Source: Brachypodium distachyon
Lineage: Eukaryota > Streptophyta > Magnoliopsida > Poales > Poaceae
Direction of reading: 5' to 3'
DNA length: 64,000 nt
Assembly: GCF_000005505.3 (NCBI RefSeq)
Contig: NC_016131.3
Location: forward strand, 36,171,001-36,235,000
The notes beneath the pieces are model-generated. The model did no database searches. It saw nothing but the letters and a program-made list of their open reading frames with translations, and was not told where the DNA came from. A program made the translations under genes and the position numbers. This document shows positions 6,112 to 57,279 of this stretch, piece by piece (within the stretch, counting starts at the first letter, position 1; the number at the start of each line of letters is the position of its first letter).

Positions 6112-8294
6112 AGGAAGGTTAGAATGTTTTGGACAGATTTAGGTGACCAGAGCAAGAGATATCCATTAGAATGTTGAGAATAGAATTATGTTGATTAGCA
6201 TAACACTCCGATCTAATGAACCAAGGGGCTGCAAACCAGGCAGCTTTAGTAAAAGGACAGAGGAAGAAAATATGAATTTCATCCTCTAAGCCTCCACATC
6301 TAGCACAGGATTTGGAAATATGCTTTGAAATTTTACCTGTAGGAAGAGCATTTTGAATGAGCCTCCAGGCCAAAGTTTTGATTCTTGGAAGGAGCGAGTT
6401 GCTTTTCCAGATCTCCATAAGTGCCGAGCTGACCTGTGAGGGAATAGAGACAGGAGGTGTAGAAGCTTGAAGATTCCTGGCACAATATTTGTAAGCTTCT
6501 TTGGCAGTGCAGATCCCTGCTGAGCTATACTTCCAACATAAGATGTCTTGACCTTCACCTGGGAGGATTTGGGTCCTTAAAATTTCATCGGTTGTAGGGT
6601 TATCAAAGAGCTGCAAAATCACATTAGTATTCCAAGATTTAGTGTTAGCATTCCAAAGATCCTTGACCTTAGCCGGGTACCTGAAATGATTTCCCTGAAT
6701 TTTAAGATGATCATGGATGTTCTTCCAAAGAGGAAACCAAGGAGAACTCCACACCGACGTGTTTTCATCTCTAAGCTGAAAAACAGGAATCTTGGAGGAT
6801 TGGGGAAATTTTTGGAGATGGAAGCCCAGAAGGCAGATTTAGGAGTGTTAGTATTGGGCTTCCAAAAGAAGGTATTAGGAAAATATTTGGCTTTAAGGAT
6901 CCGAGATAAGTGGCTGTTGGGATCACTGGCAATATTCCAAGCCGAAGAGACTAGTAGGCTTCTATTCATGGCTTGAAGGTTCCTAATACCCAGCCCACCA
7001 AGCTTCTTGGGCTTACAAATGTCATCCCAAGCTTTCAGACAAAGAGGTTTGGTCTGATCTCCATCTCTAATACCTGTCCACCAGAAGTTCCTAATTATTG
7101 CAGTGAGCTTAGCTAGGAATTTCCTGGAAAAAAGAAAGTTGGACATATAGTAAACAGGAATGGAGGAAAAAACCGAGTTGATTAAGGTAAGCCTGCCAAC
7201 ATGGGAGAGACGATTAGCTTTAGAGCCATTAAGTTTAGAGTTGAATTTGTCAATGATGAAGTTGTAGGCTGAAGATCGATCCTTTGCTGGGAGAATAAAG
7301 GGGTGCCCAAAGTGCAAAGTGGAGTTGTCTAAGTTTTGAACAGGAAAGATGTTTTTTATTTGGGCAGCAAGAGTTGGCTCCACCTTTTTACTGAAAGGAA
7401 TCGCAGATTTACCCCAATTAGGAGTATGACCAGAGTTAAGACAAAAGTCATTAATAATCTGAAGGATGTTTGTCGCTTCTTGAATGGTGGCTTCTCCACA
7501 AATGATCAGGTCATTAGCATACATTAAAGAATGGATGGGGGGGGGGGGGCAGTGGGGACCAAGGGATATTCCGCTAAGCTGATGATTCTGTAGAGCCTCT
7601 TGAAGTCTAATAGACAAGTCCTTAGCAGCAAGGACAAAAAGGTATGGCGATAAAGGACAACCTTGTCGGATTCCGTGACCGCCAGAGAATCTACCAAACG
7701 GTTGGCCATTAATGAGAACAGAAAAGGTGGGCGACGAGATGCAGGCCATTATGAGCTTTATGAAATTACCATGCAGTCCTTTACATACAAGCGCTCTCCG
7801 GATGAAATGCCATTCTAGGCGATCAAAGGCCTTAGCAAGATCTATTTTAAGCATGAAAGCATGGTGATTCTAAGAGGCAAGGCTGAAGGAGTGAGTAATT
7901 TCCTGAGCAATGATCAGATTGTTGCTAATTCTTGGATCAATGTAATCAGGAAGATGGCTTTTGAGACGATTAGCAAGAGCTTTGGAAATGATTTTGTAAA
8001 CCACATTGCAAAGACTGGTAGGTCTAAAGTCACGAGTGGTGGTAGGAGTGAGCTTTTTAGGAATTAGAGCAATAAAAGTGTCATTAAGTTTCTGAGGAAT
8101 AATACCTGTATTGAAGAAGTTCCTTACCACTTTAAAAATATCATCACCTATCCAGTCTCAAGCAGCAAGGTAGAAAGCACCATTGAAGCCATCAGGTCCT
8201 GGGGAAGCATTCCTTTTCATGGATTTTAAGATCTGAAAAATCTCATCTTTTGAAGGAGTGGAGTAGGTAAAATCATCTGGGTTAAGCTCTGAAT
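6112..8294 (-). pseudogene. LINE reverse transcriptase with zinc-finger connector (C-terminal part)
   Basis: Minus-strand remnants of the ORF2 reverse transcriptase. Recognisable in order are SPGPDGF, the ALIPKK block, RPTSLCN, KIDLAKAFDRLEW, GIRQGCPLSPYLF, the catalytic block near 7510-7530, and the CARCG...HIFFLCP zinc-ribbon near 6240-6310. The catalytic Y/F-A-D-D is YAND here, so one catalytic aspartate is an asparagine. Stops occur near 8157 and 7868 and a frameshift near 6750. The first part of this domain lies at 32702 and beyond, across the Tat-A insertion. Confidence 0.85.
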
Positions 8295-13068: not shown

Positions 13069-14559
13069 TCCCCTGTTATCTTTTGTTTTATTTTTGTTTC
13101 CTGCAAGTGGAGCTTGGCGCCATTAAACAATTATGGTTTCATTAGCCCATGTAATCGTTTGCTACTTTTAGAAATTCCGCTTTCTGGTTCTACTTGGTAT
13201 TTGCTCATGAAATTGACTCGCGGGGTGTGTCTTCCTGTCCTCGTGTGTTATACTTTGTGTTGCCGGGGACTCGCATGCTACCCACTTAACCAGACCAGGG
13301 ACCCGGGACGGACCCGCAGTGCCGACCTGGGGTTAAGCAGCAGCGGCGAGCCACTCCACTTGCGGGTTAGCTACTCCGAAGCACGCGGCTGCGGGACGGA
13401 CCTGCAAGCCGCATGAGGAGCGCGCTCCCCCCGCAAGCGTCCTTCCAACACTCCAGCCACACGCAAGACCCAACCCACACCAACGAGCCAGCGTTGAGAT
13501 TAGAAAGCTAGGCGCCTAGGATAACGCACTTAGCTGTCTGTTCTCTAGTCGAACGTAAAGGCTCTGCACTTGGAACGCCTGCTGGAGGGATGCGGCAAGG
13601 GCGATGTGAACTAATGGCATGCACCACCACAGCGTCTCTGCAGCAACCCTCGCCTTGGAACCGCTTGCTGGGGGGATGCGGCAAGGCCGCGGTGGCCGTG
13701 CACCCATCGACGCTAAGCACTGATGGCATGCACCCCCATCGCGCCTCTGCAACAGCCCCCGCCTTGGAGACGCCTCGTGGAGTGACGTGGCAGGGACGCG
13801 ATGGAGGGAACACCCTCGGTGCTTGTGCACGGAGAAATGCACCACCACCGCTCCTCTACTGCATCACTCGCCACCTTCTTAGCTTTGCTTTGAGTTGCTC
13901 CGTGGCCACCATGCCCTTTTATAGGCATGGTGGAGAATCCTGCCGCCGCGCGCGCCGAGCCACCGCGGCACAGGTGGCGACACCCTCCTGCGGTAAGAAC
14001 CTTGAAGCGGTCGACATGCCCAAGTGGCTGCCCGCTAGACGACACGGCCCGTGAGTACTCCACGAGTATCACAATGTGTCTGACCCCTAACCTTGTCCTG
14101 CATGTTAGATCCTTACCAAGCCCAAGATGCTGCAATTTTTTTCGAAATGCACGAAAAAAGGTACAGCACAGATAGCCCTCCTGCCTCCCAGCCCCCGGGC
14201 ACAGAAGGGTCGATACTCGATACCAAACTTGGGTGTGAGCACTCTCCTATTCCCAAGACGCAGCTGCTGCGTGGTGCGCGTTGCGGGGAACCCGGCAACG
14301 GCACGACCCCGTGCCGGAGTGATCCGGCAACGGGATTTTTTGTGCGAGGCTCCGGCAGCCCCCTGCTCACAGCCAAGGATGAAAAGAGACTTCTGTGCAC
14401 CTAGAGCAGGAGACAGAAGAAAAAACATGCAATAACGAGACAACTTGATATTCAAAGGAAATTACTTATCTTTATTCATAGAAACTAGCGGATTACAATC
14501 GGGGGTTGCCAGGCTACACTAGTTCGAGAGGCATGCTGCAGCAGCATCACCTGCGGGAC
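13069..14559 (-). other. Tat-A 3' domain between integrase and antisense gene
   Basis: Non-coding on the minus strand. In sense order it has AATAAA (plus 14471-14476), a pyrimidine-rich block, repeats of gttgccggg type, TATAAAA (plus 13917-13923), degenerate hairpin units (about 13600-13870), and the 3' flank of the antisense gene (13080-13430). Every part has a counterpart in Tat-C and Tat-D, so it is a conserved module and not random spacer. Confidence 0.7.
13686..13745 (-). repeat. 60-base hairpin unit in Tat-A
   Basis: Arms at 13686-13702 (gccgcggtggccgtgca) and 13729-13745 (tgcacccccatcgcgcc) pair with a central two-base mismatch, as in units of Tat-C and Tat-D. Neighbouring units at about 13601-13640 and 13795-13853 are decayed. 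A minus-strand TATAAAA lies upstream at 13917-13923. Confidence 0.65.
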
Positions 14560-23826: not shown

Positions 23827-26357
23827 TGCAACATCCCAAAATTTTCAAATTCGGATGTTCGCACCTTTTCATTTCTTATGCATATCACCTTGATCATATC
23901 TTAAAATATTGGTGTTTGTTGTGACGAATTATTGAAAGTGTTTGAAATGGTGTTTTGGAATGTGTTAGGTTGATAGAAATTGATTTGAGAATTTTCTAGA
24001 GTTTAAAAATGTATTTTAGGATTTTATTTGGGTTTATTTAAAGCTTAGAAACATTAAAACTATTTTTACAAATTTATTTTTGAGTGGGAATAATTTTCCT
24101 CGACTCTAAATGAAATATATTATTTTACAAAAATTTTGGGAATATTTCTGAAGCCTTTTGTTATTTTAAATGATTTAAATGGAATTTCGGGTGAATTATA
24201 GATCCTCAAAAGTATTTTATAATCTTTTTCTTTTATTCTTTTTCTTTTTCTCTGAAAATACGCTTTCTCCGCGGGAACACGTATTCACGGAGAAATACGC
24301 TTTCACTTAAAACCCCGAAGGGTATCTTCTAATCTCGGCCGTTCATCTCAGATCCAACGGTCACATTTTTTTTCCTATCTCTCTCTCTCTCACTGACGTG
24401 TGGGGCCCACGCGTCATCCCCTACCTCCGGCCATTCCGCCCATGTCGCCGGTGCCCGCGTTTTCCGGCCCAACCGCCGCGCCTGCCTGCGCGCTTCCCCT
24501 CGCCGACCCTGTGTCCTCGCGCACGCCCGCACCACCCCGCGCCCGCGCCTGCCTGCCTGCCTGCCCGCACCGCCGCTCGCCGCGCGCGCCCGCGCCGACC
24601 GCTCGCTTGCGCGCGCTCGCGCATGCCCCCGCGCCCACGCCCGCGCGCCCGCGCTCGCGCCCGCCTGCACCGGCCCGCGCCCGTGCAACCGCCGGACGCC
24701 TCGCGCCCATGACCCCACGCCCGCGCAACCGCCGGCCAGGCGCCTCTGCCCTATAAAAATCGCCCGCACGCCCTCTCTCGCGCGCCCCCGCGTGCACCCG
24801 CTCGCCCGCCCGCGGTCTCCCTGCCCGTGCGCGCTCCCTGCTCGCCCTGCACCTCAAATTCCGGCCAAAACCGCCGCCGCCGCCGCCCAACTCCGGCGAG
24901 AAATTGCCGGAGCTGCCCTACCCCGTTCGCCGAGTCCCGATTCGTCAAATCGTTCATCTCAAGTGAGATTTGGGTATGAACTTGTTCAAAGTTCTCTGAA
25001 ACTATGCTTTTCGGTTAGCTCTGTTCAAGCGTCGATTGTTAGCATACCATTGATCATTATGTGCTCTAGTTTTCACCATTGTGTAGAGGGAATGTTTCTC
25101 TATAAATTCTCTGTAGACAGTAGCCGTAGATGGTTCATCTCGGGCATTGCATCGTCGTAGCAAAATGGTATTCTAAGTAGCCTCTCTGGCGTATCCCTGC
25201 CGCGGCAGAAAGTGCAGCACCATTCTTAGTGAGTAGCCTTATTCGCAGTAGTTCTTCTTGTTGTCTGTAGTATCATTTTAGTTGTTTCTTTCTGTAGATT
25301 GAACTTTAGGAACACCCCTTCACAGCCATTTCCTAGTTGGACCATGTTAACTTCACCTTCACTAGCAGCTCGACGGTAGAAGTTCATATCCTATTCTGTT
25401 CTATTTTAGAGTAGCCACATTCACCTGTTCTTAGCTACTGCCTCATATCTCCATAGTTAGTGAAACCAGTGCCATTTGGAAGAGAAGATCATATCCTATT
25501 CTGTTCTGTTTTAGAGTAGCCACATTCACCTGTTCTTAGCTACTGCCTCATATCTCCATAGTTAGTGAAACCAGTGCCATTTGGAAGAGAAGATCATATT
25601 CTTGTTAGGCAACACTTTGGACTGATTGTGTCAAGTGGGTAAAGTGTACAAACCTCTCAAGAGTGTCAATCTAATCGATTAGCCATGCCCCTGGTTACGG
25701 GCAACTTTGAGTCATTAAGTCAGGAGAAGTGGAGATCTTCAAGTTTTGTTATCAAAACCCCAAAACTGTTTTGACTCGATGGAAGGTTCCACAGAATGAG
25801 TGACGGAAAAGGGATGCTATGTGAGTGTCAGTTGACCCAGAGTGCATAGCTAGGTCGTGGAGTGAACATCCACTGAATGACCATACTATTGATCAAACCC
25901 TGTTTTATCAAAACTGTAGGATGGAGATTTTCAAAGGAAAATACTATGAGTATTTCGAAACCCCAAAAGCATTTGCAAAAACAACCCTAGTAGCCAAACT
26001 AGGAAATCCTTCATCATTTCCATGCATTCCTCCTAACCACATAGGTGTGACTTGCAAGTACATTCAATGTACTGACCTGCACCTATCATGTGCAGAGAGT
26101 GAGGCATAAGAAGAAGACGCAGGGTCGCGAGTCTACACTCAACTTGCCTGTGGCGTTGATGGGACTGCCTCTTTATCAGTGTGTTTTATTTGAACTTCCG
26201 CTTGGCTTGTATTAAGTACTCTGGATTTGTTATTCGAACCGATGTAATAGACATGTGTATGGTATTTCATCAATGGAACTGTGTGTGCTAGCATTTGATC
26301 CAGGGACTAGCACAATTTACACAAAGGTTCGGATCCTTACGGGTCTAGGTCACCACA
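23827..26357 (+). repeat. Tekay 3' LTR (internally rearranged)
   Basis: 2531 bp, from tgcaacatccc to caccaca. Collinear with the 5' LTR except for loss of roughly 0.65-0.7 kb (matching about 16515-17195 of the 5' LTR), a tandem duplication at 25384-25592, and a shorter GC-rich end near 24900. Confidence 0.92.
25384..25592 (+). repeat. About 104-bp tandem duplication in Tekay 3' LTR
   Basis: Two copies, about 25384-25487 and 25488-25592, each running from tcatatcctattctgttct to ttggaagagaagatcatat. The 5' LTR has a single copy (16406-16520). It borders the deletion in this LTR, so both may have arisen in one replication-slippage or template-switch event at the shared tcatat. Confidence 0.85.
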
Positions 26358-39524: not shown

Positions 39525-41058
39525 GAAGGCGCCCTCATCACTTTCCTCCAGGATAATGCTGACGTGTTCGCTTGGGAACCGTTGGATCTTCCCGGAATGC
39601 CCAGGGAGGTGATTGAGCACCTACTCGTGGTGCTCCCGGATGAGCGCCCCGTCAAGCAGAAGATTCGGCGGCAAGCACAAGAGCGTAAAGATTTCATCAA
39701 GCAGGAGGTGGACAAGCTCAAGGCTGCCGAGGCAATCAGGGAAGTTCTGTACCCCACTTGGCTGGCTAACCCTGTAGTAGTACCTAAAGCAGAGAATAAG
39801 CTTCGCATGTGTGTAGATTTTACTGATCTTAATCGTGCATGCCCCAAGGATCCCTTCCCTGTACACCGTATCGATCAAATAGTTGATTCTACCACTGGTT
39901 GTGACGTGCTGAGTTTTCTGGATGCTTTCTCCGGCTACCATCAGATTAAGATGGCGGTCGAAGATGAGGAAAAAACAGCGTTCATCACCCCGGTTGGCTA
40001 CTATTGTTATACATGCATGCCTTTCGGGTTGAAGAACACGGGCTCCACATTCCAGCGCGCCCTGCGTGAATGTTTGGGTCCCAGCTAGGCCGCAACGCGG
40101 AGGCCTACATGGACGACATCATCATCAAATCGAAATGTGGGGACTCGCTGATTGATGACCTGCGGGAGACGTTTGATAACCTCCGCAAGATCAAGCTCAA
40201 GCTGAATCCCGAGAAGTGCACCTTCGGTGTCAACTCCGGGCAGCTTCTGGGTTTCCTGGTTTCACACAGGGGGATACAAGCCAACCCGAGCAAGATAGAG
40301 GCCATCAAGAAGATGGAGGCCCCCCGCAAGGTGAAGGATGTCCAGCGGCTCAACGGCTGCGTTGCCGTGTTGGGACGTTTCATCTCCAGGCTGGGCGAAC
40401 GCACCCTGCCTTTCTTCAAGGTGATGAAGAAGATGGGTCCGGTTGACTGGACTCCTGAGGCCGAGGCGGCATTCCAAGAACTCAAACAGTACCTGAGGTC
40501 GCCGCCCGTCCTCGTCGCCCCCAAGCCGGGCAAGCCGCTGCTACTCTACCTAGCAGCGACTGGCCAGGTGGTCAGCTCGGTGCTGGTTGCCGAGAGGGAG
40601 AAAGATGTCCCAGGACTGAGGCTGCGGGGCACAGGGCTGAGCGACCCCTGGCAACCGCCTCGGACCCAGGGACCAACCCCGAGCTGGCTGCTTCTGCACC
40701 GCGGAAGCGATTGGGGCAGCACCCCGGTGTACTTCGTTAGTACGGTGCTGCGCGACGCGCGAAGCAGGTACCCACAAGTACATAAGCTCCTTCTGGGGAT
40801 TCTCCCTACGTCCCGCAAGCTGCGCGACGACTTTCAGGCACACCGCGTCACGGTGGTGTCGGGGTTCTGCCTTGAGCAGGCCCTCACCAACCGTGAAGCC
40901 ACCAGTAGGGTGGCCGAATGGAGGATGGAGTTGTCGGAGTTCGACCTCCACTTCACCAACTCTAAAAGCATCAAGAGTACGGCCTTGGCGGACTTCGTCG
41001 CGGAATGGACGTCAACAAGCGTGGAAGAGAATGAACCGGAGACCAGCCTGCCCGGCAA
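39525..41058 (+). pseudogene. Tat-C reverse transcriptase and first RNase H
   Basis: In frame after the TAG: FAWEPLDLPG, IREVLYPTWLANPVVVPK, MCVDFTDLNRAC, LSFLDAFSGYHQIKM, TCMPFGLKN, then catalytic AYMDDIIIK at about 40105. A one-base loss near 40078 (gggtcccag against gggaccccag in Tat-D) splits the frame just before YMDD. FLVSHRGIQANP, LGRFISRLGE, LLLYLAATGQVVSSVL, STVLRDAR and TNREATSR follow, the gypsy-type RNase H. All catalytic RT residues are present. Confidence 0.87.
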
Positions 41059-41690
41059 GTTGGACGAGGACCACTGGGTCCTCTACTTCGATGGCGCGTT
41101 CAGTCTCCAAGGAGCAGGTGCCGGGGTCGTCATCGAGTCACCGACAGGGGACCAGTTGAGGTTCGCTGTCCAGCTCGATTTCCCGAACTGCACCAACAAC
41201 ATGACGGAGTACGAGGGCTTGCTCGCCGGGTTGCGGGCGGCGGTCGCCCTCGACATCAAGTGCCTAGTTGTTCGGGGAGATTTCCAGCTCGTGATCAACC
41301 AGGTGAACAAGGACTAAGACTGCCCGCAGATGGCACCGTACGTGGAGGAAGTTCGCAAGCTAGAACGTAAGTTCAAAGGTTTGCGATTCAAGCACGTCAA
41401 GCGGAAGGATAACTTCGCTGCTGACGAGCTGGCCAAGGTGGCAGCAAAGCGTCGGAAGCCTCCGACGGGGGTGTTCTGTCAGAAGCAAGCGGCTCCTTCA
41501 GTTGCCCCCGAGCCGGCTACCGAGGATGCCCCTCCGGCAACCGAAGGAACCCCTGCAGCAGCAGGGGTCCATGCCGCTGACATAGCGGCATGCATTGGCA
41601 GGGAGACCCCTCCCTGGGCGGTGGAAATCGCCCGCTACTTGAAAGGGGAGGCTCTCCCGGAAGATGACGTTGCCGCGGAATGAGTAGCGC
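41059..41690 (+). pseudogene. Tat-C second (archaeal-type) RNase H
   Basis: HWVLYFDGAFSLQGAG (Asp), MTEYEGLLAGLRAA (Glu), VVRGDFQLVINQV (Asp), then NFAADELAKVAA. A nonsense change (TAC to TAA, about 41315) interrupts VNKD-DCPQ and another stop lies near 41681. The DFQL in place of DSQL is a further lesion. Confidence 0.82.
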
Positions 41691-42847
41691 GGCAAGCCAA
41701 AATGTACACTGTGGTGGATGGAAACCTCTACCGTAGGCGTGCAAATGGGGTCAAGCTCATCTGCGTGCCGTAAGACGAAGGGCGCACACTATTGGAGGAA
41801 ATACTTCGAGGCACCTGTTCACACGTGGCCTCCCAGGCCTTAGCCGGCAAGGCGTTTCAGCACGGTTTTTACTGGCCCATGGCCCTGGCCGACGCGGAGC
41901 GGCTGGTGAAGACGTGCGAGGCGTGCCAGTTCCACTCGAAGAAGAGCAACCAACCGGCGCAGGCACTACATGTCCTCCCTTCCTCGTGGCCGTTCGCGGT
42001 CTGGGGGCTCGACATCGTCGGCAAGCTACCGAGAGTGGTTGGCGGTTATGAATATTTGTTCGTGGCCATCGACAAGTTCTCCAAGTGGATAGAAGTGGAA
42101 CCAGTGCAGAAGGTGACCGTCCAGGCGGCCATCAAGTTCTTCAAAAGCATTTTGTGCCAATTTGGTGTGCCTAACAGCATCATCACCGACAACGGCACGC
42201 AGTTCACAAGCACAGTGTTCCAGGCCTATTGCGAAGGCATGGGCACTAAGTTGCACTTCGCGTCCGTCGCTCATCCAAGGAGTAACGAGCAGGCGGAGCG
42301 AGCCAACGAAGAAGTGCTGCGGGGGCTCAAGACGAGAACCTTTGACAAGCTCAAAGTCCACGGGAAACACTGGGTCGAAGAAATCCAGCCCGTGCTGTGG
42401 TCGACCAGGACCACACCTAGTCGGGCAACGGGCGAAACTCCTTTCGCCCTTGTCTACGGGGCAGAAGCGGTGCTGCCCCTCGAGCTCAAGCGGGGATCTC
42501 CCCGGGTACGCCCGTACGGCCACACCAGCCAACACGAGCAAAGGGTCGATGATCTAAACTTCATCGAAGAACTTCGATGCCGGGCTGCTGTGCGAGCCGC
42601 GCGCTACCAGCAAGGACTCCGTCGTTATCACGACAGGCGAGTCCGCCCTCGGGGGCTCGAGAACGGAGACCTTGTCCTGCGCCGGATACAAGGAACGAAG
42701 CCCGGGAACAAGTTGACTCCGAAATGGGAGGGCCCCTTCCGGGTAGTGCAGGTGACCAGGCCGGCGGCTCTCCGGCTGGAAATCGAAGACGGCTTGCTGG
42801 TGCCAAATAGTTGGAATATTGAGCACTTGCGCAAGTTCTACCCGTGA
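41691..42847 (+). pseudogene. Tat-C integrase
   Basis: A stop near 41771 precedes a long open part from 41792. The zinc domain reads CSHVASQ, one His fewer than CSHHVASR of other copies (a 3-base loss), with CEACQ retained. WGLDIVGKL, TDNGTQF and EQAERANEEV hold the catalytic Asp, Asp and Glu. GETPFALVYGAEAV and NIEHLRKFYP complete it. No chromodomain is present. Confidence 0.86.
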
Positions 42848-42949: not shown

Positions 42950-43657
42950 GATAAGTGTTTCGTTCCTGAGCTTTAAAGTTGCCTTGCTTATTTGTGTGTT
43001 CCCTCCTTCTTCTGTCTCCTGCTTTTGGTGCATGGAAGTGTCTTTCCAAACTTGGTTGTGAGCAGGGGGCTGCTGGAGCCTCAAAAGCAAAAAACCCCGT
43101 CACCGGATCACTCCGCCACGGGGCATGCAGTCGCCGGGTTGACCGAGACATGCATCAAGGGACATGCAGTTGCCGGGTCCGTCGCAACGTGCATCACGGG
43201 GCGGGTGGGTGCTGGGCTTCCCGCAACACGCGCCTCGGCTAGGGAATGGAATGCTCACATCCAAGTTGGCTTCAACCCTTCCGTGCCGGGGGGGCTGGGA
43301 GGCAGGAGAGATGAGGTTACTCGTGTTGCTTTGTGTATTTTTGTGAATTTCGAAAAAAACTTGCCGCACCTCGGGTCTGGTAAGAATCTAACCTGCAGGA
43401 AAAGATTGAATCTTATGCACTGTAATACCCGTGGGCTGCCCACGGGTCGCGGCATGCAGCGGTGCCTTGTGGTGCGGGACGACCGCAACACAGGAGACTC
43501 ACCGCACTCCGAGGCTCCTGACTCGGGAGGGCGCCGCCACGTGTGCCACAGCAGCTTGGCATGCGGGCTGGCGGAGACTGTACCACATTTCAAGGGAGGG
43601 TTGCCACGGGTGCCGCGCTGATCCGTCGAGCGTGGTGGCAAGCCCCTCCCCCGCGCC

Positions 43658-43664
43658 TATAAAA
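43658..43664 (+). promoter_or_regulatory. Internal TATA box, Tat-C module 1
   Basis: TATAAAA in gcctataaaaggcgcg. A start about 30 bases downstream would lie near 43690, just before the first hairpin at 43737 and after the ATG at 43679. That argues against translation from that ATG. Equivalent boxes: 44791-44797, 56819-56825 and minus 13917-13923. Confidence 0.6.
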
Positions 43665-43736
43665 GGCGCGCCCCAGCCATGGAACGGCTCAGAGCGAAGC
43701 CAAAAGAGGGGCTGTTGAGGCGGGCAGTGTCGCGGA

Positions 43737-44124
43737 GGCGCGATGGGGGTGCATACCATCCGCGCTTAGCGCCGATGGGTGCACGGCCATCGCGCCCTTG
43801 CCGCATCGCCCCATCGAGCCCACCACGACGGGCGTCGCAGAGACACGGTGGTGGTGCATGCCATCAGCGTTCTGCGCCGACAGGTGCACTGCCACCGTGC
43901 CCCTGCCGCGCCTCCCCAAGCGGGAGGCTCCTGGGCGAGGGCTGCCGCGGAGGCACTGTGGGGGTGCATCCCCTTAGCGCCCGGTGCTGACGGGTACACT
44001 GCCGCAGTGCCCTTGCTGCATCCCTCCATAGGGCACCTCCGCAAGGAGCAGGGGCTGCCGCGGAGACACTATGGTGGTGCATAACATCCACGCCTTACGC
44101 CGACGGGTGCACCATCATAGTGTC
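43737..44124 (+). repeat. Hairpin array, Tat-C module 1 (four 60-base units)
   Basis: Units at 43737-43796, 43842-43901, 43952-44011 and 44065-44124, each exactly 60 bases with 17-base arms around a loop containing a ccatc...gcgcc-like core. Arms differ between units but remain complementary. Unit 4 pairs gacactatggtggtgca with tgcaccatcatagtgtc (one G-T wobble). Unit 1 pairs ggcgcgatgg with ccatcgcgcc. Most units share a central two-base mismatch. The pattern suggests a structured RNA; the role is unknown. Confidence 0.8.
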
Positions 44125-44177
44125 CCGGCCACATTCCCCTTGAGAGAGCCTCATTTTTCAGGCGCAGGTCGTTCCGA

Positions 44178-44347
44178 GGACGTTGTGATGGCGCCGGTGT
44201 CACCGCCCGCCGCCCGTTCCGGCCCATCACCGCGTCCCTGCCACGGCTCTCGAGCAGTTTTGCTCCCGGGCAGCGAGGGCTGCTGCGGGAACATCGTGGC
44301 ATCCTTGCCGCCCGCTTTCAGCAGTGGTGGCGAGGAAGCCACGATGT
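44178..44347 (+). repeat. Second-class hairpins, Tat-C module 1
   Basis: One 60-base inverted repeat at 44178-44237 (ggacgttgtgatgg with ccatcaccgcgtcc) and another at about 44291-44347 (acatcgtggcatcc with ggaagccacgatgt). They continue the array with different stem sequences. Confidence 0.65.
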
Positions 44348-44790
44348 CCCTGCTGCACCCCTCGGGACGAGCTCCCCAGAAAAACCAGGTCTCCCCGGAT
44401 GCGGGGGCTGTCGCCGGGAGGCTATAACTTCCTCGCCACTCGGGAGGCTATCTGATTTACCTGTGTTGCTTGTTTTCGTAAGTTTCGAAAAAAAATTGCA
44501 GCACCTCGGATCTGGTAAGAGTCTAGCCTGCAGGAAAGGGAGGAATCTTGTACACTATGGCGCCTGTGAGCAGCCCATGGGCCGCACCATACACCGGTGC
44601 CTTGTGGTGAGGGAGGACCGCAAGACAAGGGGTTCACCGCACTCCGAGGCTTCTAAGTTGACGGCTTGCCGCCACGTGTGCCGCGGTTGCCCGGTAAGCA
44701 TGGCGGCGGAAACTGCGCCGCGTTCGAGGGAAAGGCGCCACGGTGTCGTGCGGATCCGTCGCGTGCGGTGACAAGCCTCTCTCGCGCTTC

Positions 44791-44797
44791 TATAAAA
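44791..44797 (+). promoter_or_regulatory. Internal TATA box, Tat-C module 2
   Basis: TATAAAA followed by ggcgcgacccaaccatgg, closely matching module 1, about 75 bases before the first hairpin of module 2. Confidence 0.6.
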
Positions 44798-44869
44798 GGC
44801 GCGACCCAACCATGGAATGGCTCAAAGCGAAGCCTGGATCGGGGCCGTGAAGGCAGGTGGTGCAACGGA

Positions 44870-45368
44870 GGCGCGGAGGTGGTGCTTCCCGCCCGCGCCT
44901 AGCGCCGGCGGATGCGCGGCCATCGCGCGCCTGCTGCATCACCCCATCGAGCCCACCCCGAGGGGCGCCACAGAGGCACGATGGGAGTGCATGCCATCGG
45001 CGTCTCGTGTCGACGGGTGCACTGCCGTTGTGCCCCTGCTGTGCTTCCTCAAAGGGGCGGTTCCTGGTCGAGGGTCGCCGCAGAGGCATTGTGGTGGTGC
45101 ATCCCATCAACGTCCAGCGCCGACGGAGTGCATTGCCACAGTGCCCTTGTCGCCCCCCTCCGTAGGACACCTCCGCAAGGAGCAGGGGCTGCCGCAGAGA
45201 CTCTATGGTAGTGCATGCCATCCGTGCCTCATGCCGACGGGTGCACTATCATAGAGACCCGGCCGCATTCCCTTTGAGAGAGCCTTTTTCGGGCGCGGGT
45301 CGTTGCGAGGACGCTGTGATGGCGCCAGTGCCGGCGCTCGTCGCCCGTTCCGGCCCATCACCGCGTCC
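44870..45368 (+). repeat. Hairpin array, Tat-C module 2
   Basis: Units at 44870-44929 (weak), 44975-45034, 45085-45145 (61 bases) and 45199-45258, then a second-class unit at 45309-45368 (ggacgctgtgatgg with ccatcaccgcgtcc, one mismatch). Unit 4 pairs gactctatggtagtgca with tgcactatcatagagac. Against module 1 unit 4 it shows two paired substitutions (A-T to T-A and G-C to A-T) that keep the stem. Confidence 0.78.
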
Positions 45369-46343: not shown

Positions 46344-49286
46344 CTATCTATCGCCGTCTTCGGCCGGGGGGTCGACGGGGGGATCAGGCTCCGGCTTCAT
46401 CTGCATCCGCTCGACGACCTCGTCGACGAACTCGCGCACTGCTTCAGTGTGCGTGGGCTCATCCTTGCTGTCGGACCAAGCGTCCAGCAGGGACTCGAAG
46501 GGAAATTCCGGGTCCCGGAGATGAATCCGTGGGAGGATTGTCCCGGCAACCTCCCGGGCGCAGTTGGCGACTTCATTGGCGCCATACTTGGCGATCCAAA
46601 CATCGAGCGCCCCGAGCTTCCCCAACAAGTCGGAGAAGAAGGGGATCAGTGTTGTGACGTCCGTGCCGTCCACCTCCGCCGCCTGTAGCTCGAACTTAGG
46701 CAGCAGGTCGCGCAGCGACTCGGCGATCTTCGCCAGCTTCTCCGTCTCGAGCTGCCGTTGCCCGATCAGCCTGCCGTGATGGAGTCGGGCATGTTGCGCG
46801 GCCTTCTTGGCCTTGCTGACGCGGCCCTCCAGCTTCGCAAGCTCTAAGGCCTGGGTCGCGTTGGCCTCGCCGGCCTTAGTGAGCTCTTCCCGGAGGGCGG
46901 TCAACTTGTCCTCAAGGCCGGCCGCCTTGCCTTTGACGGAGTTGAGCTCGGCCTCGTGCTGAGCCGCCGCTCTCGCCGCGACCTCGACAGCCTTGACCTG
47001 CACCTCCAGCAGGACACGAAGGCCTTGGATTTCGCTGCGGTAGTTGGCGATTAGGTTGCTCTTCTTGTCCAGCCGCGCCTGGGCCGTCACGAGCACCTCG
47101 ACATGCTCCTTCCGGGACGCTTCGAGAGTTGCCGCCATCGTGTCGAGCCTTCCTTGGAGCTCCGTGCGCTGGACCTCCAGCTGCCGACGGAGCTCTGTCT
47201 CCGGGACTACTGGCTCCCGAGCAGCCTCCAGGGCTTGCCGAGCCAGCCGCGCCTCCTCTTCGGCGAGGCCCGCCTCCTCGCGCAGCCGGGAGAGTTGGCG
47301 CCGCTCCCTCTCCACGGCCTCCCGCACCTCGCCGAGTTGATTCTTGGCGGCGGCGTGGCACTCCCTCACCTCGTTGTAGGAGGTGACGAAGGCGAACTGC
47401 TGGTCCCGGACAGCGTCCAGGAACCGGTGCCCCCGCTCGAAGATGTTCGGATCCCAGGTAAGAGGATTCCAAGCGACCCCGGCGAGGGTGCCGAGGTCGG
47501 TGCCGGGGAGAGCCCCCGAGGATGATGAAGCCCCTGCTGCCGAAGTGGAGCTAGACGCGGGGTCGCCAACTTGCTCCCGGGGGTCTTGCCGTCCTTCCCC
47601 GGCAACTTTCCCCGCGCCTAGGCTCCGGGACACCGGGGTTGGAGAGGGCTCCCTGCTTCCGGCGGGGGTCGCCCCCTGTGGGTCGGGTGCCAAGCTCACG
47701 GAGGCCCCTGCTACCGGAGCGAAGGCCGTCGCTGGGGCGCCGGTGGCCCCCGCAGGTGCGGGCGTTGCCGGGGTACCGGCGGGCACCCGGGGAGCAGTTC
47801 CCGCCGCGGAGCTGGTGACCGCCGCCAAGGCAGGGGCCGCCGCCGAGGCACTCGCGACCCCTGTTGCCGCGACTGCCGTCGGGGTACCAACGGGCGCCCC
47901 AGGAGCGGCGACCGCCGCCAGGTTGGGGGCCGCTGCCGAGGCGGACGTCGCTGTTGAGGAGGTGGCTGCGGCCGCCACGAACGCCCTCGACCTTCTCACG
48001 ATCACGGGCGCGCTGTCGCTGCTTTCCTCGTCGTCGTCCTCCATGGCGACGACTTCCGGGGTCACAGCCACCTGGCCCGCCTCGTCGTCCAGCGACAGGA
48101 GGGAGGGCCCGCTGGGCTCGGACCCGCCCTCGCTCTCCTCGAGCACCTGCTTCCCGCGGGGTGCTTGCGGGGGAGCGTGCGGGACACGGGTGGGGGTGTC
48201 GTCCATCAGCCCCCACTCGTTGCAGGGTGGGAAGGCACCGACGATGTCGCTAAGCGCCCTGACACCGGCACGGAGAGCGGAGACCCCCGGCGGGAACTCC
48301 GTTGACTGGAAGACCTCGCCGGAGATCCCCCTGACCCACGTCCTGAGGGACTCCAAGTCCATGCCATCCGCCTGGAGGCGTGTCCTGTCCCCGGATCCCG
48401 TGTACATCCACGCGGGCTGGGAACGTAGCTGCAGCGGGGCTATGCGCCGATGGACGAAGGTGCGCGCCACGTCGACATCGATGAGCCCCGCTAGCCGCAA
48501 TGCCTTGATCTTCTCCACGATGGGGAGGAGGTCGGCGTCGCGGTGGTACCTATCCTGCCAGCCGATCTGGGGCACCGGCAACTCCTTCGGCGGTTGGATG
48601 AACTCCTGGGGGTCCTCCACTCGGACCCAGCACCAGTTGCCCCGCCACTCTTTTTCGATCTTCTTCCCCGACCGGACGATGAACTCCGACTTCATCTGGT
48701 CGCGGGCGCGGAAGACCACCCCCGACGACATCGCCTTTGCATTGTCGATGCGCGGGTAGAAGTAATGGCGGAAGAGCCCCACTGACGGCATCACCCCCAC
48801 GAACGCCTCGCAGAGAAACTAGAAGGTGCCGAGGAGGAAGAGCGAGGTGGGGTGGAGCTGCGCCACCCGCAACTGATAGGACTCCATCAGCGTGTGGAGG
48901 AACAGAGAGAAGGGCGGCACCATGCCGCAGAGGAGGAAGCGCGCGAACAACCGGAAGTCGTTATCCTGGTGTTCGACGCCCGCCGGGAAGATCCGCATCT
49001 CCTCGTGCTCGTTGAAGTTGGAGGCGACGGCGTGCCGGAGCTTCCCCAGCGCCTCGCCATTATAGCCGGGGCGGAAGAAGGCGACTGTGGCGCGCATCTC
49101 CCGCCTCTTCTGGTCCTTGGCGGCGGCCGCTTTGAGTGCCGCCTCGGTCTTGCTGGTTGCGGGCTTGTTCGAAGACCGGACCTCCTTCCCCTTCCTGGTG
49201 GTGGGGGGCGCCGTGGGGAGCAAGGGCGGAAGCTGGCAGGAGCGCAGGGATACGAGATGCGGAAGAGGATGGAGGCAAAAGGGCAA
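46344..49286 (-). pseudogene. Tat-C antisense gene, nearly intact (about 980 codons, one stop)
   Basis: Minus strand. The first part (49286-48819) has TVAFFRPGYNGEALGKLRHA, FRLFARFLLCGMVPP and LHPTSLFLL. A single TAG near 48819 follows, where Tat-B has a glutamine codon, so a CAG or CAA to TAG change is likely. The frame is then open for 818 codons to 46344: SVGLFRHYFYPRID, WCWVRVEDPQEF, QPAWMYTGSGDR, an alanine/proline-rich linker, LAGVAWNPLTWDPNIFERGH, a long coiled coil (about 47340-46760), TLIPFFSDLLGKLGALDVWI and an acidic tail. No intron is needed; the KLKPP region and its introns of Tat-A are absent. Such a long intact frame in a dead element is notable. Confidence 0.8.
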
Positions 49287-56818: not shown

Positions 56819-56825
56819 TATAAAA
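56819..56825 (+). promoter_or_regulatory. Internal TATA box of Tat-D 3' domain
   Basis: TATAAAA in cgcctataaaaaccgc, followed by ccatggaacggct as in Tat-C, about 70 bases before the first hairpin. A perfect cccgtggg...cccacggg inverted repeat sits upstream at about 56658-56676, with a counterpart in Tat-C near 43428-43446. Confidence 0.6.
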
Positions 56826-56896: not shown

Positions 56897-57279
56897 GGCG
56901 TGATGGTGGTGCATACCATCAGCGCCCAGCACCGACGGGTGCACTGCCATCGTGCCCTTGCAGCATCGCCCCACCGAGCCCACTCCGAGGGACCTCGCAG
57001 AGACACGGTGGAAGTGCATGCCATCACCGCTCCGCGCCGATGGCTGCTGCCGTGCCCTTGCCACGTCTCCTCTAGCGAGTGGCTCCGAGGCGAGGGCTGC
57101 CGCGGAGGCACTGTGGTGGTGCATTCCATCGGTGCCCGGTGCCGACGGGTGCACTACTGCAGTGCCCCCGCCACACTCGTCCAGAAAGTATCTCCGCAAG
57201 GAGCGAGGGCTACTGCGGAGACACTATGGCGGTGCATGCCATCCGCACTCAGCGCCGATGGGTGCACTGCCATAGTGAC
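56897..57279 (+). repeat. Hairpin array, Tat-D (four units)
   Basis: Units at 56897-56956, 57002-57056 (right arm shortened), 57107-57166 and 57220-57279. Arms are 17 bases, for example gacactatggcggtgca with tgcactgccatagtgac. The same spacing, loop core and stem logic as Tat-C, with different stem bases and several G-T wobbles. Confidence 0.78.

Follow-up and report, generated by a model that had tools for sequence, protein, structure and literature searches.

A high-copy family of LTR retrotransposons in the grass Brachypodium distachyon carries, downstream of its integrase domain, an array of four short inverted repeats. Comparison of its genomic copies indicates that this four-unit array probably contains a hairpin core selected on the sense strand, and that it is preceded by a conserved promoter motif internal to the element, which belongs to the Retand lineage. 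The starting point was a window of 64,000 nucleotides (NCBI RefSeq assembly GCF_000005505.3, contig NC_016131.3, positions 36,171,001 to 36,235,000 of the forward strand), in whose numbering all coordinates are given. From the letters of this window, the original prediction had singled out tandem hairpins with compensatory stem changes as a candidate for an undescribed RNA module. Part of that proposal now appears likely, namely selection on the sense-strand core, whereas the double changes exceed chance only modestly and the lower stem shows no strand bias.

The host element and its family

The region 43737-45258 sits within a plus-strand Ty3/gypsy element, Tat-C. Pfam matches on the plus strand between 40070 and 42847 correspond to the end of the reverse transcriptase (RT), the RNase H, a second RNase H (RVT_3) and the integrase. 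The models concerned are PF00078, PF17917, PF13456 and PF00665, found in the open reading frames (ORFs) 40070-41317 and 41792-42847, with PF17917 at 210-291 and PF13456 at 340-414 of the former and PF00665 in the latter. The domain order of Tat-C is therefore RH, aRH, INT, with the second RNase H lying between the RNase H and the integrase, an arrangement that is the rule for the Ogre/Retand branch of Tat (Neumann 2019, PMC6317226). Because Tat-C shows the order RT, RNase H, PF13456, integrase, we place it in this branch.

A hallmark of Retand is an antisense ORF with a TRP28 domain between pol and the 3' LTR (Vicient 2025, PMC11963269). PF04195 (TRP28) was detected in three of five antisense ORFs scanned, all of them from relatives (L015, L019 and L029), while the window's own 818-residue antisense ORF in the 3' domain (46344-48800, minus strand) matched no Pfam family at 0.001. 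The array lies between the integrase and the antisense TRP28 genes. When the 181 downstream comparisons were ranked by dN/dS, 42 of the lowest 45 (0.18-0.45) were antisense; the other three were sense and all overlapped antisense frames, so that no independent sense gene stands out downstream. The length of the region between pol and the 3' LTR also fits the Retand range of 2.9-6.6 kb: in L019 the integrase match ends at 321 and the 3' LTR match starts at 6711-6903, a distance of about 6.4-6.6 kb, and in L021 the corresponding stretch runs from the end of the integrase match at 294 to about 5.6-5.8 kb.

Searches of the 271-Mb genome with the modules yielded 1013-1405 first-look candidates, and since 40 of each search were scored, copy numbers for the family are lower bounds. 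The hairpin arrays belong to a high-copy Retand/Tat family. Copies of the array were chosen as the best matches to whole modules, which biases the sample toward complete arrays, and every copy analyzed comes from one genome. The main set of 36 copies comprises nine of the M1/D subfamily and 27 of the M2 subfamily; a set of 40 copies comprises 13 and 27, respectively. Four type A copies, in which unit 1 has diverged, were left out of the pair statistics. The L018/L017 repeat pair, which does not start at an LTR end, was set aside. In all ten copies that were mapped, the array occupies the same position after the integrase. Two arrays on contig C6, L047 near 11.45 Mb and L048 near 11.18 Mb, are identical over the 600 bases compared and lie in opposite orientation, pointing to either a recent duplication or a pair of very young copies.

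Organization of the hairpin arrays

Tat-C contains two modules of four units each on the plus strand. The unit cores of module 1, each with a 17-bp stem, lie at 43737-43796, 43842-43901, 43952-44011 and 44065-44124, and those of module 2 at 44870-44929, 44975-45034, 45085-45145 (61 bases) and 45199-45258. All eight inverted repeats originally noticed in Tat-C, with their 17-base arms, were confirmed. The four units of Tat-D (56897-57279, plus strand) were likewise recovered at 56897-56956, about 57002-57056, 57107-57166 and 57220-57279, the second having lost five bases from its 3' arm. Tat-A, on the minus strand, has three unit positions, and its one clear unit (unit 2, 13686-13745) is flanked by a diverged unit 1 (13779-13870) and a unit 3 (13584-13652) that is truncated in the window copy.

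The fixed design described for the window extends to the family. Among the 144 units of the 36 copies, 112 are exactly 60 bases long, 28 have 61 bases and four have another length. The starts of successive units are 105, 110 and 113-114 bases apart in the Tat-C modules and 104-105, 104-116 and 113-115 bases apart over the 36 copies, in keeping with the spacing of about 100-120 bases first reported. The number of units is four in all 36 non-A arrays and three in all four A arrays. This constancy, observed among the best whole-module matches, disfavors a satellite-type array with a varying repeat number. A coding array was also considered and rejected, since not every one of the spacings (105, 110 and 113) would preserve a reading frame; a 340-residue ORF across the Tat-D array matched no Pfam family. 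A scan of the 64-kb window against Rfam at the gathering thresholds of its curators returned no match, and neither a tRNA nor any other Rfam RNA was found in the window. Several units carry TGCATG at the top of the 5' arm (43855-43860 and equivalent positions), which we take to be the core of the plant RY element.

The two modules of Tat-C are of separate descent. A scan for the closest relatives in 150-base steps found M1/D copies to be the best match in 31 of the 34 segments between 39,401 and 44,500, the other three being one tie, one M2 and one A, and M2-type copies to be the best match in all 30 segments between 44,501 and 49,000. Tat-C is a chimera of two subfamilies, each of which contributed one module, joined at about 44,440-44,500, and template switching between M1/D and M2 is the likely cause. 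The switch from M1/D to M2 near 44,450 rules out a tandem duplication of one palindrome within Tat-C; the modules of the window are 72-87% alike, depending on the segment. It also follows that differences between module 1 and module 2 are subfamily differences. The two paired substitutions noted between the fourth units of the modules therefore distinguish M1/D from M2 and did not arise after a duplication.

Predicted folding and maintenance of pairing

Against 60 dinucleotide shuffles per sequence, units 1-4 have mean folding z-scores of -5.6, -4.5, -6.8 and -4.6, and in 30, 27, 36 and 30 of the 36 copies, respectively, the sense strand is predicted to fold more stably than its complement. 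In a strand-neutral alignment, where G-T and A-C are scored alike, each unit has 40-51 nested pairs and a pairing score of 23.7-31.6, as against 13.0-15.9 in four control windows upstream. To the earlier picture of 17-base arms around a loop of about 26 bases it must be added that the loop is itself partly folded and that the stem extends outward beyond the core. Strand-specific constraint was seen in the 17-bp core alone.

Persistence of pairing was judged against simulations that placed changes randomly along the tree and took the commonest pair for its root. Over the 36 copies the paired fraction of core cells is 0.928, compared with a simulated 0.840 (sd 0.025) that reached the observed value in none of 400 runs; over the 144 units it is 0.928 against 0.754 (sd 0.042), and none of 300 simulations attained it. 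The lower stem (0.764 vs 0.684) and the inner part (0.844 vs 0.734) likewise lie above all 400 simulations. Among the 24 ways of assigning arms to one another, the assignment of each arm to its own partner was unbeaten in all 40 copies (13/13 M1/D and 27/27 M2). The claim that complementarity has been kept through independent change is supported by the core pairing and by this assignment. In averages of Watson-Crick pairing each 5' arm pairs most with its own 3' partner; with G-T pairs counted, two of the eight unit averages slightly favor a foreign arm (0.86 vs 0.85 and 0.96 vs 0.95).

At eight of the 17 positions in the core, both members of the pair change from one Watson-Crick pair to another across the units and the 40 copies. 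Double changes between the subfamilies number four, with 1.4 expected (p=0.033), and the other restricted analyses of re-pairing gave p=0.040 and, for 14 of 184 pairs against 6.8 expected, p=0.002. Over the units, double changes affect five of the 17 core positions against 3.0 expected (p=0.059). Simulations attained the observed number of two-sided changes in six of 400 runs for the core in orthologous arrays, in 15 for the lower stem and in 163 for the inner part (400 runs each), and in 26 of 300 for the core in units; the number thus exceeds the null for the core in arrays, but neither for the core in units nor for the inner part. Taken alone, double changes are modestly above chance.

A comparison of inherited changes (states in two or more copies) with private ones (in one copy only) supplies a measure of constraint, with the windows for units 2-4 beginning one base early in these counts. 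Core stems have 49 inherited and 59 private changes and loops 66 and 38, the stem being the more constrained (p=0.009), whereas for the 60-base units as a whole the difference from upstream sequence is not significant (p=0.098).

Strand signature of probable selection in the core

In a paired arm, a change of C to T or of A to G leaves a G-U pair in the sense RNA, while the mirror change leaves an A-C mismatch, and mutation alone would be expected to produce both about equally. In the core of the 36 copies, inherited changes are 28 G-T to 5 A-C and private changes 11 to 16 (Fisher p=0.00085). No bias is seen in two symmetric controls, the lower stem (27:32) and the inner part (19:21). With 40 copies the core counts are 30:8 inherited and 10:17 private (p=0.00084), and collapsing the core over the four units gives 17:5 (p=0.017). 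Within subfamilies, inherited one-sided core changes comprise 17 G-T, 5 A-C and 1 other, against 20, 22 and 25 private ones, a G-T excess with p=0.0004 relative to the rest and p=0.033 relative to A-C; two-sided changes (3 shared, 5 private) were left out of this count.

The asymmetry is partly ascertained, because the core was originally picked from the window by a reader that accepted G-T pairs. Removal of the pair types present in the three window copies reduces the inherited core counts to 10:4 (p=0.18). The same removal within subfamilies, using 40 copies, leaves 10 G-T, 5 A-C and 1 other inherited against 15, 21 and 23 private changes, with p=0.13 for G-T against A-C and p=0.008 against A-C plus other, two-sided changes (1 shared, 5 private) again being omitted. 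The G-T excess among inherited core changes is thus weaker once window-visible states are set aside. When the best window of 17 pairs is chosen strand-neutrally, the core is recovered only in units 3 and 4; G-T and A-C cells in these windows number 101:3 and 50:11 for units 3 and 4, and 62:28 and 42:66 for units 1 and 2. On this body of comparative evidence, selection on the sense RNA for the 17-bp core is likely.

An internal promoter motif and a putative fifth hairpin

A new element of the picture is a conserved TATA box; the start predicted from it would fall 46 bases ahead of the hairpin 1 core. Every module of the window, in Tat-A, Tat-C and Tat-D, has TATAAA followed about 33 bases downstream by a start motif, which is CTCARAGC in Tat-A and in both Tat-C modules and reads CTTACAGC in Tat-D. 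The TATA boxes lie at 43658-43664 (Tat-C module 1), 44791-44797 (Tat-C module 2) and 56819-56825 (Tat-D) on the plus strand and at 13917-13923 (Tat-A) on the minus strand. By the usual spacing, transcription from module 1 would be predicted to begin at A43691, which lies 33 bases beyond the TATA box's first T and within a putative start region at 43689-43697 (plus strand). TATAAAA is intact in 34 of the 36 copies; L029, the one other type A copy inspected, has TATAAGA at the TATA position. The block 43652-43697 has accumulated 12 inherited and 23 private changes as against 137 and 84 upstream (p=0.003). An exact match to the TATA box plus start motif occurs 146 times genome-wide, and the reversed-pattern control does not occur at all. 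Four LTRs from two copies have a TATA of their own in a different setting.

Short inverted repeats flank the TATA boxes of the family (43650-43672; around 13923 on the minus strand; at the LTR TATA 8664, minus strand). Their arms differ between Tat-A and Tat-C, and the LTR promoters are flanked likewise. An RNA-level hairpin around the TATA box was considered and rejected, with a pairing score of just 6.6 and pairs rich in A-C; given this poor showing as an RNA hairpin, the inverted repeat is more likely a DNA-level feature.

Downstream of unit 4 lies a putative fifth hairpin of different sequence, H5 (44163-44252, plus strand), with 37 nested pairs and a pairing score of 24.3, compared with 13.0-15.9 in the four upstream windows. 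Its cells contain 177 G-T and 48 A-C, although shared pair types number only 14 and 10. With 38 inherited and 47 private changes, H5 is more constrained than upstream sequence (p=0.007). Types M1/D and M2 share the layout of promoter, leader, four hairpins and H5, and the Tat-A of the window likewise has the promoter and hairpins.

Possible functions and competing explanations

The array is most economically read as a structured sense-strand RNA module serving as the leader of an internal sense transcript in Retand-lineage (Tat) elements, an explanation to which we give about an even chance. RNA polymerase II would start at about 43691, and four or five hairpins would make up the 5' leader of a transcript that heads for the 3' LTR, against the direction of the antisense genes. 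Such a transcript would probably be non-coding, because the conserved downstream frames are antisense. The least certain steps concern its action: the hairpins might stabilize the transcript or bind a protein, with the element's Gag and the TRP28 product as leading candidates. The transcript in turn might temper the antisense gene or the genomic RNA. Somewhat speculatively, one may go further and propose an accessory non-coding RNA gene, with a sense promoter and four to five selected hairpins, that regulates the element, for example as a bait for TRP28 or Gag or by acting against the antisense mRNA; no sense RNA gene of this kind is named in the available text of the Retand survey (PMC11963269). 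The chief rival of the internal leader is a cis-acting role in full-length genomic RNA, in packaging, dimer formation, nuclear export or translation control, the TATA box being separate or unused. Retroviral packaging stem-loops and the 3' export elements of simple retroviruses offer an analogy. The two readings are compatible, since either RNA would contain the hairpins, and genomic RNA would account equally well for selection on the sense strand. The position after the integrase, constant in the ten mapped copies, fits such a role, as does retention of the array in copies without an RT match between the 5' LTR and the integrase (L022/L021 and L030/L029), though the missing RT may reflect later deletion in single copies. 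A genomic-RNA role alone leaves the constrained TATA box and start block unexplained, and the Rfam scan furnished no match; we regard it as possible but not probable.

The remaining explanations appear less attractive. Old palindromes whose arms are copied from one another, or are decaying, could have no RNA function at all and at most provide sites for DNA-binding proteins. Templated repair and template switching are routes for such copying between arms, and the pairing beyond the null without strand bias in the lower stem and inner part is what DNA palindromes would show; the modest excess of double changes and the partial ascertainment of the core asymmetry point the same way. We nevertheless consider this improbable, as templated copying or DNA sites predict equal numbers of G-T and A-C, in conflict with the inherited and private counts of the core, and the constancy of four units in all 36 arrays of two subfamilies, together with the divergence between modules, argues against youth. 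Processing of the hairpins to small RNAs, whether in the manner of the bovine leukaemia virus miRNA cluster or by plant Dicer-like enzymes, is very unlikely. The hairpins of that viral cluster are comparable in size and are processed to small RNAs, and a succession of hairpins of about 60 bases in the 3' part of a retroelement does resemble it. In addition, five or six T follow directly 3' of unit 4 (44153-44157) in 30 of the 36 copies, yet this run is missing in five of nine M1/D copies and one of 27 M2 copies. Moreover, none of the 36 copies has a run of four or more T between the predicted start and the end of unit 4, and among five sequences scanned a B box was found in none and an A-box match in two. 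Stems of 17 bp are short for plant Dicer substrates, which also counts against this reading. Small-RNA production and the use of polymerase III thus have little support.

Relation to known systems and implications

In the Retand survey, tandem arrays adjoin pol and differ in repeat number between copies of a single cluster; where the repeats come from and what they do is described there as unknown (PMC11963269). The family studied here resembles this lineage in its second RNase H, the long region between pol and the 3' LTR, the antisense PF04195 ORF of its relatives and a repeat array beside pol. It differs from the arrays as described in the survey (PMC11963269) in having four units in 36 of 36 copies, in the hairpin form of the units and in the sense promoter motif that precedes them. 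The words hairpin, TATA and secondary structure are absent from the main text of PMC11963269, hairpin and secondary structure from the main texts of PMC7004042 and PMC3305785, and hairpin and promoter from PMC6317226; in the available text of PMC3290532, hairpin occurs once. None of the titles and abstract openings listed describes such hairpins, whether on satellites from LTR retrotransposons, on RNA structure and covariation in plant retrotransposons, on Retand hairpins or internal promoters, or on accessory genes and antisense transcription.

Other known systems share features with the array. A 2013 study by Gomez-Orte is said to have found that the maize element Grande has an accessory gene with its own promoter. 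The likeness would lie in the 3' internal region of a Retand-lineage element having a transcription unit of its own. However, the accessory gene of Grande is antisense and encodes a nuclear protein (PMC11963269), whereas the promoter motif described here has the sense orientation and faces frames whose conservation is on the opposite strand. The miRNA cluster of bovine leukaemia virus, which is driven by RNA polymerase III (PMC7601775), is similar in that short hairpins follow one another in the 3' part of a retroelement, away from its main promoter. Unlike that cluster, the present array lacks a B box in the five sequences scanned and T runs between its hairpins in the 36 copies, and it has one TATA box for all of its hairpins. 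Retroviral packaging stem-loops and constitutive transport elements also consist of several sense-strand hairpins with a role in genomic RNA. The array differs from them in position, number and type of element, and the Rfam scan by which homology was checked revealed none.

What makes Retand elements retain so long a stretch between pol and the 3' LTR is a question that the survey leaves open (PMC11963269). If the present interpretation is correct, this region would gain a testable RNA function from a selected array of hairpins preceded by a conserved internal promoter, and plant LTR retrotransposons would encode a non-coding RNA besides an antisense protein. The comparison of inherited with private G-U and A-C states can be applied to any high-copy retroelement. 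Elsewhere in the window, at 25378-25599, there is a 105-base tandem repeat of about two copies with 98% matches.
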